IMG/VR virus record: IMGVR_UViG_3300043548_000280
Coordinates: 1 to 25,273 of that record
Direction: 5' to 3' (one strand)
DNA: 25,273 nt
Source of the DNA: a virus
A program made the translations under genes and the position numbers. Positions 3,500 through 20,248 of the stretch are shown piece by piece (position 1 is the first letter of the stretch; every line of letters starts with the position of its first letter). Under the pieces are notes generated by a model that saw only the letters and a program-made list of their open reading frames with translations, made no database searches and was not told where the DNA came from.

Positions 3500-3540
3500 T
3501 GATATAATTTATATAGACCGCCTTATGGGGTCTATATAAT
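3500..3540 (+). promoter_or_regulatory. Tandem -10 boxes around an 11-bp hairpin before hsp20
   Basis: TGATATAAT (3500-3508) is an extended -10. It is followed at once by an inverted repeat with 11-bp arms (3509-3519 and 3529-3539, TTATATAGACC / GGTCTATATAA). A second TATAAT (3535-3540) overlaps the right arm, giving a start near 3547 and a leader with the strong AAAGGAGG site at 3554-3561. The hairpin lacks a T-tract, so it may be an operator or 5' mRNA structure rather than a terminator. Confidence 0.5.
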
Positions 3541-3989: not shown

Positions 3990-4096
3990 TATAATTGTAG
4001 TGTCCCACAGGGTGGGGCACGGGCCAATAGTTACGCCTTAGGATACACCTGAGCATGTGTTTAAACTGCTCACCAAACATTAAGGGGAACAAAGTA
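3990..4096 (+). promoter_or_regulatory. Promoter and structured 5' leader of the kinase/nucleotidyltransferase gene
   Basis: TATAAT (3990-3995) predicts a start near 4002. Two hairpins lie in the leader: 4000-4008 paired with 4012-4020 (GTGTCCCAC/GTGGGGCAC, one G-U pair, loop AGG; its outermost pairs precede the predicted start) and 4038-4042 with 4048-4052. GGC 4022-4024 can also pair with GCC 4035-4037. AAGGGGA (4082-4088) is the ribosome-binding site for GTG 4097. A nearly 100-nt folded leader is unusual in a window full of leaderless genes and may be a regulatory RNA; I match it to no known riboswitch. Confidence 0.45.
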
Positions 4097-4858
4097 GTGA
4101 TAATTCAAATTATTGGACTTCCAGGATCTGGGAAAACGGAATTAGCTAAAGCTTTAAAAGAACGCATCAATGCAATTCATTTAAATGCAGATGAAGTTCG
4201 TGCAACAGTAAATTCAGACCTTGGATTTACGCCAGAGGATAGAGTTGAGCAAGCAAGAAGAATGGGCGAAATGGCTCGTCTTATTGCAAAACAGGATGTT
4301 GCTCCAGTTATAGTTGATTTTGTATGTCCAACAGAAGCTACACGACAAGCATTTGGCAAGCCAGATATTTTGGTATACATGTATACAATATCTGAGGGCA
4401 GATTTGAAGATACAAATAAAATGTTTGAAGCTCCACAAAAATATGACATAGGCTTTCCAAGCCACTTACTTGATCCAAATCAAAAAGCTTCTACTATAAT
4501 AGATCAATTTGGATTACATGATTGGTCAGCTCCAACAACACTAATGCTTGGAAGGTATCAGCCCTGGCATGAAGGTCATCATGCATTGTATGAAGAGGCT
4601 GGAAAGAGAACAAAACAAGTGCTACTTGGAGTTAGAAACACTTATAAGACAAGTGAAAAAGACCCACTTACTTTTAATGAAGTAAAAGAATATATTTCAA
4701 AGGATTCATTTATGGATGGATCAATGGTTTTGAGGTTACCAAACATTACAAACATTGTTTATGGTCGTGATGTTGGGTATAAGATTGAGCAGGTAAAGTT
4801 GGGAGACGAAATTGAAGCTATTAGCGCTACGCAAAAGCGTAAAGAAATGGGCATCTAG
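4097..4858 (+). CDS. P-loop (APS-kinase-like) kinase fused to HxGH nucleotidyltransferase
   Basis: Two-domain cytosolic enzyme of 253 residues. N-terminal half: Walker A GLPGSGKT (residues 7-14) followed by LNADEVR (29-35), the layout of adenylylsulfate (APS) kinase and related small-molecule kinases. C-terminal half: GRYQPWHEGHH (152-162) with the HxGH motif and a late ISATQKRKE (242-250), the signature of NMN/nicotinate-type adenylyl- or cytidylyltransferases. The second domain is about 110 residues, far too short for ATP sulfurylase, so this is not a standard PAPS synthetase. Possible roles are NAD-precursor metabolism or activation of a small alcohol. I choose GTG 4097 because AAGGGGA lies 8 nt upstream and the P-loop strand follows directly; an in-frame ATG at 4055 would add MCLNCSPNIKGNKV. 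Confidence 0.72.
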   Translation: MIIQIIGLPGSGKTELAKALKERINAIHLNADEVRATVNSDLGFTPEDRVEQARRMGEMARLIAKQDVAPVIVDFVCPTEATRQAFGKPDILVYMYTISEGRFEDTNKMFEAPQKYDIGFPSHLLDPNQKASTIIDQFGLHDWSAPTTLMLGRYQPWHEGHHALYEEAGKRTKQVLLGVRNTYKTSEKDPLTFNEVKEYISKDSFMDGSMVLRLPNITNIVYGRDVGYKIEQVKLGDEIEAISATQKRKEMGI

Positions 4859-8695: not shown

Positions 8696-8704
8696 TGATA
8701 TAAT
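8696..8704 (+). promoter_or_regulatory. Extended -10 promoter, leaderless lipoprotein gene
   Basis: TGATATAAT ends 7 nt before ATG 8711, placing the transcription start on the start codon. It overlaps the end of the preceding gene. No Shine-Dalgarno sequence lies before 8711. Confidence 0.6.
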
Positions 8705-16680: not shown

Positions 16681-16788
16681 ATGAATAATTGTGAAATAAA
16701 AAATTGTAATAATAAAGCAACAAGAATATCATCACCAGATAAAAAGTTTATCTGCGAGGAATGTTGGCACAAAGAATATAGATCTTAA
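16681..16788 (+). CDS. 35-residue zinc-binding microprotein
   Basis: 35 residues: CEIKNC (Cys4, Cys9) and CEEC (Cys25, Cys28) followed by WHKEY, the shape of a small treble-clef zinc site. It overlaps the radical-SAM start by 1 nt (TAATG), implying coupled translation. Possible accessory or substrate of that enzyme (inference). Confidence 0.68.
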   Translation: MNNCEIKNCNNKATRISSPDKKFICEECWHKEYRS

Positions 16789-17790: not shown

Positions 17791-17895
17791 ATGTGCTGGA
17801 TATGTGGCTGTGCAGACCACGTTGGGCCTGGAAATGAGCAAAGAGACTCAGAGGATTCAGATTCTAATCAACTAAATGATATAATTGATGAGTGA
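17791..17895 (+). CDS. MCxxCGC microprotein A (34 residues)
   Basis: 34 residues: MCWICGCADH at the N-terminus, then a Gly/Asn/Gln linker and a strongly acidic Ser/Asp tail (SEDSDSNQLNDIIDE). MCxxCGC is the high-affinity nickel site at the N-terminus of HypB in E. coli, where the free amine and three cysteines bind Ni(II). The gene starts 4 nt after the radical-SAM stop. It is too short for chance selection of such a motif to be judged alone, but two relatives lie within 700 bp. Candidate metal-binding peptide or radical-SAM substrate. Confidence 0.6.
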   Translation: MCWICGCADHVGPGNEQRDSEDSDSNQLNDIIDE

Positions 17896-17920
17896 GCGGT
17901 ATTCTAGATCCGCTTATAAT
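17877..17920 (+). promoter_or_regulatory. Tandem promoters for the small-peptide operon
   Basis: TGATATAAT (17877-17885) and TATAAT (17915-17920). The second predicts a start near 17927 and a short leader with AGGAG (17931-17935), 6 nt before ATG 17942. The first would start at GTG 17892, opening a 10-codon frame that ends at 17924; whether it is translated is unknown. Confidence 0.5.
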
Positions 17921-17941
17921 ATAAACCTATAGGAGAAAAAA

Positions 17942-18100
17942 ATGACAACAAATGGTATAAATGGTGGCGGATTTGAAGCTGCAAAGCCAGCAGGCACAAA
18001 CAGCATCAATGCACACTACTCAGATAACACTGGAGCTGCATTCCCAGCTACAGATAAGTCATCACAAGATGGCTCAGGCGTAGGCAACGGCGGTAAGTAA
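17942..18100 (+). CDS. 52-residue Gly/Asn/Ala-rich peptide
   Basis: 52 residues, low-complexity: MTTNGINGGGFEAAKP, a middle with NSINAHYSDNTGAAF, and a Gly-rich end (GSGVGNGGK). No cysteine, no hydrophobic segment. A dedicated promoter and a strong ribosome-binding site suggest high expression. It could be a disordered virion or decoration peptide, or a precursor for the nearby radical-SAM enzyme; nothing in the sequence decides. First of four tightly packed genes. Confidence 0.62.
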   Translation: MTTNGINGGGFEAAKPAGTNSINAHYSDNTGAAFPATDKSSQDGSGVGNGGK

Positions 18101-18101
18101 T

Positions 18102-18248
18102 ATGTGCGTTGAATGCGGTTGCGAAAGCGTAGGCAGCCAGTCAGGTATGCGCTCAGTTAATATGATGGACGTATCAAACGGAATGAATGAGAGAGCAGAA
18201 GAATCTGCTTCTCATGAAGCAGCGGAAGGAATGGTTGATCCAGACTAA
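18102..18248 (+). CDS. MCxxCGC microprotein B (48 residues)
   Basis: 48 residues: N-terminal MCVECGCESVG, again the HypB-type MCxxCGC, then a Ser/Met/Asn-rich middle and an acidic tail (EESASHEAAEGMVDPD). It starts one base after the preceding stop and shares one base with the next start, so the four peptide genes are translated together. Shares architecture with peptide A: metal-site head, flexible neck, acidic tail. Confidence 0.65.
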   Translation: MCVECGCESVGSQSGMRSVNMMDVSNGMNERAEESASHEAAEGMVDPD

Positions 18249-18442
18249 TGTCAGACGGAACACCAGAATCGCTTCCAAGCCAACCATCAGGTGCGGTTAC
18301 TAGTCGTGGTGCAACCAGAAAAAATCCAAAACAAAATGGATTCAGATCTGGAATAAAAATTGATACCAATAAACATGGTATTCGTAGAGAAACATCTACT
18401 GCTCCACGTCCGCCAAAGAAAACTGGTAGAAAAAAAGTATAA
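18248..18442 (+). CDS. 64-residue basic, Pro-rich disordered protein
   Basis: 64 residues, strongly basic (RGATRKNPKQNGFRSG; PPKKTGRKKV at the end) and Pro/Ser/Thr-rich, likely unstructured and possibly nucleic-acid binding. Its basic charge complements the acidic tails of the flanking MCxxCG peptides, with which it is 1-nt overlapped on both sides. No family recognised. Confidence 0.6.
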   Translation: MSDGTPESLPSQPSGAVTSRGATRKNPKQNGFRSGIKIDTNKHGIRRETSTAPRPPKKTGRKKV

Positions 18443-18525
18443 TGTGTAAAAGTTGTGGGGATTGCTCTAAAGAGCATTATCCAAACCTGGATGACAGAAT
18501 TGACGAAGTTCTTGATTCTTTTTAG
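18442..18525 (+). CDS. MCxxCGxC microprotein C (27 residues)
   Basis: 27 residues: MCKSCGDCSKEHYPNL, then an acidic helix (DDRIDEVLDSF). A variant of the MCxxCGC head with an inserted Asp (CGDC). Its start overlaps the previous stop by 1 nt. Third member of the local Cys-rich microprotein set; short, so confidence rests on the shared motif and tight packing. Confidence 0.55.
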   Translation: MCKSCGDCSKEHYPNLDDRIDEVLDSF

Positions 18526-18557: not shown

Positions 18558-19199
18558 ATGAGCGTAGACATAAATCTTATTAAATCACAAGGGTATAAGG
18601 TCACAAACCTAGACCCCAATATCTACATGGTAGAAAACTTTTTAACAAAAGAGGATATTGATGAAATGTGGAACATAATAGATAATGCTCAAGCTGAAGA
18701 TTGGGCTCAACATCAACATTATACAAAGCATTTAGAAGACAGAGCAGAGGAACTTACTGGCAGCAGAGATTTTAAAGCAGCTGGAATAGAAGTAACTCAA
18801 AATTGGGACGATAAAGTACTTGCGCTCTCTGGAAGAACTGGGCTAGTTCAAGTTCTTGCAAATAGAGTTGCATCTTTTTTTGATCCAAACTGCGGATTTG
18901 ATTTTAGAAGCTTTGGAACGTTGCAAAGAATGTATGACGGTACTGAATTAAAAGCTCATTATGACGATAAGGCAGATGTAAGACACGTATGGGCTTGCGT
19001 TGCATATGTAAATGATGATTACAATGCGGGTGAATTATTTTTTGCCAATAAAGGCATAGAGATAACTCCGCCTGCAGGTTCTGCAATGATATTTCCAGCG
19101 ACAGAAGAGTATGAGCATGGAGTTCGCAAGGTCATTGCTGGGCCAGTACGTTACGTGCTTCCGTCTTTTATTTTTGATCATTCAAAGATGGTAAAATGA
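18558..19199 (+). CDS. Prolyl-4-hydroxylase-like 2OG-Fe(II) oxygenase
   Basis: 213 residues, same family as the gene at 2. Iron ligands His134 and Asp136 (AHYDD) and His187 (EHGVR); Arg198 (VRYVLPSFIF) for 2-oxoglutarate; YVNDDYNAGELFF (150-162) matches the first gene's YLNDDYEGGKLTF. N-terminal VENFLTKEDIDEMW is the usual P4H entry helix. Candidate targets include the peptides just upstream or host proteins. Only a weak AAAGAA ribosome-binding site. The stop overlaps the PLP-enzyme start by 4 nt (ATGA), so the two are co-translated. Confidence 0.85.
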   Translation: MSVDINLIKSQGYKVTNLDPNIYMVENFLTKEDIDEMWNIIDNAQAEDWAQHQHYTKHLEDRAEELTGSRDFKAAGIEVTQNWDDKVLALSGRTGLVQVLANRVASFFDPNCGFDFRSFGTLQRMYDGTELKAHYDDKADVRHVWACVAYVNDDYNAGELFFANKGIEITPPAGSAMIFPATEEYEHGVRKVIAGPVRYVLPSFIFDHSKMVK

Positions 19200-20248
19200 C
19201 ATCTATATATACAAAAGTAATTTGTAAAGGGCGTCCAGAAAAGAATCCAGACGGTCCGATAAATACACCAGTATCTTTAAACTCATCTTACCACGCAGGG
19301 GGAGACATTGGTTATGGAAGATACGGAAATGATGCATGCTCATCTTTAGAAGAAGTAATAGCTTCATTAGAAAAAGGAAGAACTTTAGCATTTAGTTCTG
19401 GCATGTCAGCTACACAAGCAATTGTTAATTTAGCTCCAGTCGGCGCAAAGATAATTGCGTCCAATCAAGGGTACGCTGGAGTAAATGCAACATTAAACAA
19501 ATTAAATAATTCAGGCAAAATAAAATCTGTTTTTGTAGACATTTCAAATACAGGAGAGGTTTTAGGAAACATAGAAGACGCATGGCTTTTATGGATAGAA
19601 AGTCCAACCAACCCTATGTTGCAGGTTGCAGACATAGAAAGATTAATAAAATCTGCAAGACGAAACAACACAATTGTTGTTGTAGACAACACATTTGCTA
19701 CACCAATAAATCAAATACCATTAGATTTAGGAGCAGACATATCAATAAACTCTGTTTCAAAGTATTTTGCTGGACACACAGATGTTCTTGGCGGATCAAT
19801 ATCAACAAATAACTCAGATCTTTATGATCTTATTGAGTTTGAAAGAAAAATTAGTGGGACCATAATTCAACCATTTGAAGCTTTTCTTGCGTTAAGAGGA
19901 ATTAGAACTTTTCCAATCAGATTTGAAAAGGCACAGAATTCAGCCAAATATCTATCTGAAAAAATAAGCTCACATAATCTAATTAAATCAGTATACTATC
20001 CAGGATTTGGTGCAATGATTTCATTTGACATACATGGAACACCAGAAGATGCTGAAAGAATTTGTTCTTCCTCTAGATTAATAGCGAATGCAACAAGCTT
20101 GGGAAGTGTTGAGTCGCTTTGGGAAAGAAGAAGGCGGTGGCCCCTTGAAAGCCATATCGTTCCTGAAACGCTAATTAGATTGTCTGTTGGATGCGAGGAT
20201 CCTGAAGACTTGTGGAGAGACATTAGCGGATGTCTAGATTTAATATGA
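19196..20248 (+). CDS. Cystathionine gamma-synthase/lyase-family PLP enzyme
   Basis: 350-residue Cys/Met-metabolism PLP enzyme (fold type I). Visible: YGRYGND (40-46), SSGMSA (67-72), Tyr93 stacking on PLP, ESPTNP (135-140), VVDNTFATP with Asp164, and the Schiff-base Lys189 in SVSKYFAGHTD. Members transfer or break C-S bonds: cystathionine gamma-synthase, gamma-lyase, O-acetylhomoserine sulfhydrylase or methionine gamma-lyase. It is some 30-40 residues shorter than usual (380-400); GFGAMISFDI, present in synthases, and the C-terminal ETLIRLSVGCEDPEDL are retained, so the shortening seems internal. The exact reaction cannot be assigned. A rare phage auxiliary gene, probably supplying or recycling sulfur amino acids. 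Confidence 0.87.
   Translation: MTSIYTKVICKGRPEKNPDGPINTPVSLNSSYHAGGDIGYGRYGNDACSSLEEVIASLEKGRTLAFSSGMSATQAIVNLAPVGAKIIASNQGYAGVNATLNKLNNSGKIKSVFVDISNTGEVLGNIEDAWLLWIESPTNPMLQVADIERLIKSARRNNTIVVVDNTFATPINQIPLDLGADISINSVSKYFAGHTDVLGGSISTNNSDLYDLIEFERKISGTIIQPFEAFLALRGIRTFPIRFEKAQNSAKYLSEKISSHNLIKSVYYPGFGAMISFDIHGTPEDAERICSSSRLIANATSLGSVESLWERRRRWPLESHIVPETLIRLSVGCEDPEDLWRDISGCLDLI

Follow-up and report, generated by a model that had tools for sequence, protein, structure and literature searches.

As shown in Table 1, a radical-SAM (rSAM) gene and a run of very small genes lie on the plus strand of the window, which is the whole 25.3-kb IMG/VR virus record analysed here. Three of the small genes, termed A, B and D, start with MCxxCG. 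The window has three matches to the corresponding pattern ATGTGYN6TGYGG, whereas shuffles predict 0.07; all three lie on the plus strand and within 670 nt. In the 68-120 kb relatives searched, CxxCGC starts are found at this locus only. The stop codon of B overlaps by one nucleotide with the start codon of a gene for a basic protein, which overlaps in the same way with D (TAATG in both cases). The MCxxCG microproteins had been proposed in an initial annotation of this DNA, and their frames are indeed present at those positions and conserved in relatives. The four frames listed there hold, while a conserved 52-aa protein, the first gene of the cassette, had been overlooked.

Table 1. Features of the microprotein locus (window positions). 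The head pN/pS values are from loci that were not picked by the peptide's own search pattern.
Feature	Position	Strand	Remarks
35-aa Cys4 microprotein MNNCEIKNCNNKATRISSPDKKFICEECWHKEYRS, zinc-ribbon-like	16681..16788	+	TAATG overlap with radical-SAM gene
Radical SAM/SPASM protein, 332 aa	16788..17786	+	PF13186 1.2e-12, PF04055 7e-11
Peptide A MCWICGCADHVGPGNEQRDSEDSDSNQLNDIIDE	17791..17895	+	34 aa, net -8; head pN/pS 0.10
Extended -10 promoter (predicted) TGATATAAT in the last codons of A (..NDII..)	17877..17885	+	28/32 A genes; before 90/91 cassettes
5' leader hairpin GCGG-TATTCTAGAT-CCGC, invariant CTAG	17896..17913	+	Compensatory changes in relatives
Ribosome-site box CCTATAGGAG, conserved	17926..17935	+	Unique in window
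52-aa Gly/Asn-rich protein ending SGVGNGGK, first gene of the cassette	17942..18100	+	dN/dS 0.41
Peptide B MCVECGCESVGSQSG...	18102..18248	+	48 aa, net -8; head pN/pS 0.20
Basic 64-aa protein, DTNKHGIRRE motif	18248..18442	+	Net +11; dN/dS 0.27
Peptide D MCKSCGDCSKEHYPNLDDRIDEVLDSF	18442..18525	+	27 aa, net -4; head pN/pS 0.17
2OG-Fe(II) oxygenase, follows D	18558..19199	+	PF13640 1e-10
PLP enzyme, cystathionine gamma-lyase/synthase type	19196..20248	+	PF01053 1.5e-79

A WhiB gene was found in the window by profile search (PF02467, 2.6e-11). Since whiB is a marker gene of actinophages (PMC6802176, PMC10202952), an actinobacterial host is indicated. The gene content and the contig naming suggest that the source is a freshwater phage. 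A relative with the same microprotein locus (IMGVR 3300043419_000731) is 120 kb long and has repeated ends, which suggests a circular genome of about 116 kb. It encodes a DnaE-like polymerase and a 2735-aa tape-measure-like protein, both named by sequence inspection.

The MCxxCG frames are found again in other viral contigs, in numbers from dozens to more than a hundred. A scan of viral contigs with the A pattern gave 47 stretches, 46 of which are genuine, and scans with the B, D and basic-motif patterns gave at least 120 contigs each. Because the D and B patterns fix several residues, the conservation claims made here use unbiased subsets only, namely loci that the pattern of the peptide in question had not selected. 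The median dN/dS values are 0.27 for A, 0.29 for B, 0.16 for C, 0.36 for D and 0.28 for E (C and E are relatives of A and B), and 0.27 for the basic protein, 0.41 for the 52-aa protein and 0.45 for the 35-aa Cys4 microprotein, which has 71 DNA-unique relatives. Purifying selection across relatives, the check that the initial annotation had named for these small ORFs, is thus borne out for A, B and D. In the loci not picked by a peptide's own pattern, synonymous sites are near saturation and the heads of A, B and D are nearly invariant; the tails are under weaker constraint (pN/pS of 0.43 for the IDDAVD tail of D). The microproteins are genuine, conserved genes under strong purifying selection, and they are probably abundant or well expressed. 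A, B and D have no match above threshold to any Pfam, NCBIfam or PHROGs model, and tblastn found nothing convincing for them among 50,697 phage records. No convincing relative of rSAM, A, B or D was found among the known phages in INPHARED.

Do A, B and D belong to one family? They had been described as a three-member family, which is rejected as stated because the ligand spacing differs and the profile support is weak. A, B, C and E have CxxCGC heads with Cys2, Cys5 and Cys7. The Cys7 residue is present in 26/26 A and 19/19 C sequences and, among the matches listed, in 91/91 B and 11/11 E sequences. A has an invariant His10 in addition. In contrast, every D among the matches listed has CxxCGxCxxEH, that is, Cys2, Cys5, Cys8 and His12, with the CxxCxxC loop in 95/95. 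The Cys8, Glu11 and His12 residues are kept in all ten D peptides from loci that were not picked by the D pattern. Profile comparison gave weak support for a kinship of A and B and little for D.

The rSAM protein is a SPASM/twitch enzyme, as judged from its domain matches, its AF2 model (pLDDT 87.6) and its fold matches, which include the peptide maturases SuiB, SkfB, EpeE and anSME and the small-molecule enzymes BtrN and DesII. It resembles BtrN, SuiB, anSME, SkfB and EpeE in domain content and predicted fold, but unlike them it belongs to a family restricted to phages in the collections searched. A host origin was considered and rejected, the best match in genome_contigs being a partial one of 29%. 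A scan of viral contigs gave 76 rSAM loci. Relatives of at least 62% identity carry A, except for L016 and for contigs that end before the position of A, and all 46 genuine A genes lie directly after the rSAM gene or after an rSAM-PLP gene pair. L016 (2343-2470) has a deletion of the Cys head of A but retains the part of the tail that holds the promoter, and its rSAM frame is intact. No Cys peptide was found alongside the marine relatives of rSAM (habitat from gene content and contig naming), which adjoin glycosyltransferase-like and 2OG-like genes (names by inspection). The distant relatives in L037, L039, L044, L045, L058 and L068 lie amid such genes and Thr-Pro-rich repeat proteins (by inspection), a neighbourhood suggesting the decoration of virion proteins.

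The tail of A deserves a separate description. It was revealed that its conserved end (..LNDIID) is the translation of CTAAATGATATAATTGAT, which contains a putative extended -10 promoter, TGNTATAAT. Of 32 A genes, 28 have this box unaltered. The residue that precedes II varies between D, A and G, and these changes map to the free N of TGN in TGNTATAAT; in L034, where A has M instead of I, TATAAT is preserved. The box is missing from four A genes, all of which precede a PLP gene and have lost II, and the headless A of L016 keeps the stretch. Thus, a role of the acidic tail of A in protein docking is largely rejected; the TGNTATAAT pattern explains the DII codons, and the conserved tail is largely, or at least partly, the DNA footprint of the promoter. 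With or without A, TGNTATAAT stands upstream of CCTATAGGAG in 90 of the 91 cassettes among the matches listed, and the distance between the two is almost always 43-47 nt. Between them lies an 18-nt hairpin (GCGG-N10-CCGC) with compensatory GTAG/CTAC and ACGG/CCGT versions. All 44 pair cells hold standard pairs, and slid versions come nowhere close. Among the matches listed, sufficient sequence upstream of B or E is available in 98 cases, and in 89 of these the gene is preceded by the dyad and CCTATAGGAG. Since this leader stands before nearly every B or E cassette whether or not A is present, A lies outside the overlapping unit. The overlapping operon of the initial annotation therefore holds for B, the basic gene and D but not for A, which is separated by the promoter and the hairpin. 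It is likely that A closes the rSAM unit and that the 52-aa gene, B, the basic gene and D form a separate one with its own leader.

The TGNTATAAT pattern occurs eight times on the plus strand and once on the minus strand of the window, usually just before a gene, while 2.6 occurrences are expected on both strands together. The additional plus-strand sites before genes are at 3500, 6401, 8696, 12163, 21081, 23347 and 24234. The layout of the microprotein cassette, with a hairpin and a ribosome site after the box, recurs at 3500 (before Hsp20) and 6401. At 8696, 12163, 21081, 23347 and 24234, an ATG lies within about 10 nt downstream, and the genes behind these sites likely have leaderless mRNAs.

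The PLP gene is often found together with rSAM and A. B and D mostly occur away from rSAM; among the 44 B+D loci listed, seven have an rSAM gene nearby. The relatives L007 and L086 encode the 2OG oxygenase with an MCxxCGC head fused to it. AF2 was tried for placing this Cys head, and the head came out disordered, with pLDDT below 50 for the first 22 residues. Two further Cys-containing sequences were observed. The APS-kinase-like gene of the window may begin with an extra MCLNCSPNIKG head (4055-4100), while in relatives the gene starts at MIIQ, for example in L005. Cassettes without A (L152, L156, L158, L161, L162 and L269) often have an extra Cys-tailed microprotein before B, ending in ..CTRDTRGEA.C.VKDCENCN.

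Two known metal sites resemble the heads. In E. coli HypB, nickel is bound by the N-terminal amine together with Cys2, Cys5 and Cys7, with a sub-picomolar Kd (PMC7055735). The peptides A, B, C and E begin with MCxxCGC and share the Cys2/5/7 spacing of the HypB nickel site (NF053667, HypB_prefix_1), but the phage proteins are 23-68 aa long and lack the GTPase domain (A stops after 34 residues). Nickel is suggested by analogy of spacing. The HypB_prefix model touches 19/19 A variants with a best E-value of 0.0019, which is below the cut-off (19.5 bits against the curated 30 bits). D resembles the [4Fe-4S] loops of ferredoxins (Pfam Fer4) and of maquettes, having CxxCGxC at cluster spacing (for example, CKDCGNC), after which come xxE and, four residues past the third Cys, a potential ligand. 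In the assembly of [4Fe-4S] clusters on short peptides, the CxxCxxC spacing is fixed (PMC10946529). D differs from ferredoxins in having the invariant His12 in place of the fourth Cys, a single loop in 26-45 aa and no ferredoxin fold. The best PDB match of D was a ferredoxin with a non-significant E-value of 0.78, and Fer4_21 was touched by 2 of 24 D variants, again without significance (best E 0.0039). With the profile matches falling short of the threshold, it is the spacing of the ligands that supports the metal assignment.

I propose that the peptides are genuine phage proteins with an N-terminal thiolate hook for a metal or an Fe-S cluster, and I give a carrier role about even chances. 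Removal of the initiator Met, which is expected before Cys, would expose the N-terminal Cys amine and three thiolates in A, B, C and E, the ligand set that E. coli HypB uses for nickel. In D, Cys2/5/8 would form a [4Fe-4S] loop with His12 taking the place of the fourth Cys. In such a role, these small peptides may carry or buffer metal or Fe-S clusters for redox and iron enzymes or serve them as docking tags. The client of A would be the rSAM protein and that of the fused MCxxCGC head (two relatives) the 2OG oxygenase, while B and D would be more general. The nearly invariant heads, the strict linkage of A to rSAM, the fused oxygenase head and the thioredoxin gene near 25 of the 44 B+D loci listed favour this model. 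Most B and D loci lack rSAM, and no common client emerges. The 52-aa gene, B, the basic gene and D would be expressed from their own promoter and hairpin leader, and the A gene, which lies just upstream, overlaps it. The disordered head in the AF2 model of the fused oxygenase, the marine rSAM relatives without peptides and the headless A beside an intact rSAM in L016 count against the carrier model, as do the sub-threshold profile matches and, in D, the missing fourth Cys and ferredoxin fold.

The initial annotation had offered another reading, in which A, B and D attach by their acidic tails to the basic 64-aa protein in one charge-driven assembly. The charges are indeed constant. Among the matches listed, the basic protein carries +9 to +12 in 103/103 variants, and the tail is negative in all A, B and E sequences and in 97% of the D sequences. 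In this phage group, the basic gene adjoins a Cys peptide far above background and overlaps with both B and D. An MCxxCG peptide lies within 900 nt of the basic gene at 111 of the 126 loci with enough flank (among the matches listed; 0.014 expected), and these 126 loci were mostly picked by the B or D patterns. However, when loci were fetched by the basic motif (HGIRRE) alone, 22 of 46 had an MCxxCG peptide within 900 nt and 24 did not, among the matches listed; many of these 24 have shorter HGIRRE proteins in other gene contexts. The gene before D is the basic gene in 50 and another gene in 58 of the 108 cases listed, with 17 upstream clusters, and a 75-aa protein with an acidic end precedes D in 24 of the 108. 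Thus, the complex may exist here but is not a rule, and an obligatory acid-base pair is rejected as a general explanation. Furthermore, the end of the tail of A is promoter sequence, and several rSAM loci (L024-L031) have A without the basic protein. These counts do not support the assembly as originally described, and I consider such charge pairing improbable. In another phage group (L135, L181, L220 and similar loci), D follows the 75-aa protein ending in ..EYGDDYEDD, always with the one-base TAATG overlap. The motif ID[TIV]NKHGIRRE is also found in short basic proteins of other phages (L318-L367; for example, L324, L326 and L349), and many of these proteins follow a gene ending in ..YPYAKDLYY...FGF..LK.FLD..

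Is A instead a RiPP precursor or another substrate modified by the adjacent radical-SAM/SPASM enzyme? Its strict linkage to rSAM, the SPASM domain and the maturases among the fold matches favour this idea, and A is the only peptide that adjoins a radical-SAM/SPASM gene (directly or after the PLP gene) as a RiPP precursor would. On the other hand, the conserved Cys residues of A at positions 2, 5 and 7 apparently leave no room for an N-terminal leader, and no RRE-type domain was matched in rSAM. The fold matches also include small-molecule enzymes, the marine rSAM relatives lack A, B and D have similar heads mostly without rSAM, and L016 keeps the rSAM frame although the head of A is gone. I regard a modified substrate as very improbable. 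Zinc binding or a redox-thiol function is an alternative for the heads of A, B, C and E. As structural zinc-binding or host-takeover adaptors, the peptides would fold their heads on zinc and dock on a host protein with the short tail. The conserved tails of D (IDDAVD) and B (FINE) fit such adaptors, and D keeps the same tail across many contexts, like a stand-alone effector. This reading is possible but rather unlikely; the CxxCxxC spacing of D is one usually seen in Fe-S loops and not in single zinc sites, no partner was found, and the tail of A is weakly conserved outside the promoter codons. It was also considered that the peptides are redox-thiol microproteins which cycle disulfides or buffer ROS alongside thioredoxin and peroxiredoxins in a phage redox module. 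Within 4 kb of the 44 B+D loci listed, thioredoxin was found in 25 and a peroxiredoxin-like gene in nine, and many ROS-defence genes were reported in a freshwater phage survey (PMC6802176). However, thioredoxin is near only 4 of the 65 D-only loci listed, and three Cys residues rather than two, with the invariant His of A and D, point to metal ligation. A redox-thiol function has little probability.

The metal or Fe-S carrier role, the reading preferred here, has a bolder form. The D-type peptides might be the smallest natural ferredoxin-like proteins, with a single [4Fe-4S] loop and a His ligand, and the A-type peptides might be dedicated metal or electron donors of a phage rSAM enzyme. I consider this combination a long shot. 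If true, a single strongly expressed cassette would supply these phages with a set of free-standing metalloproteins of one loop each. The tail of A is a clean case in which what looks like a conserved "protein motif" is probably promoter DNA, which is a trap for small-ORF discovery. The B, D and basic-motif families each occur in at least 120 viral contigs, yet Pfam, NCBIfam and PHROGs contain no model for the peptides. Should the heads bind metal, they would be natural minimal metallopeptides, and the ideas of a one-loop ferredoxin and of an N-terminal metal hook would become directly testable.
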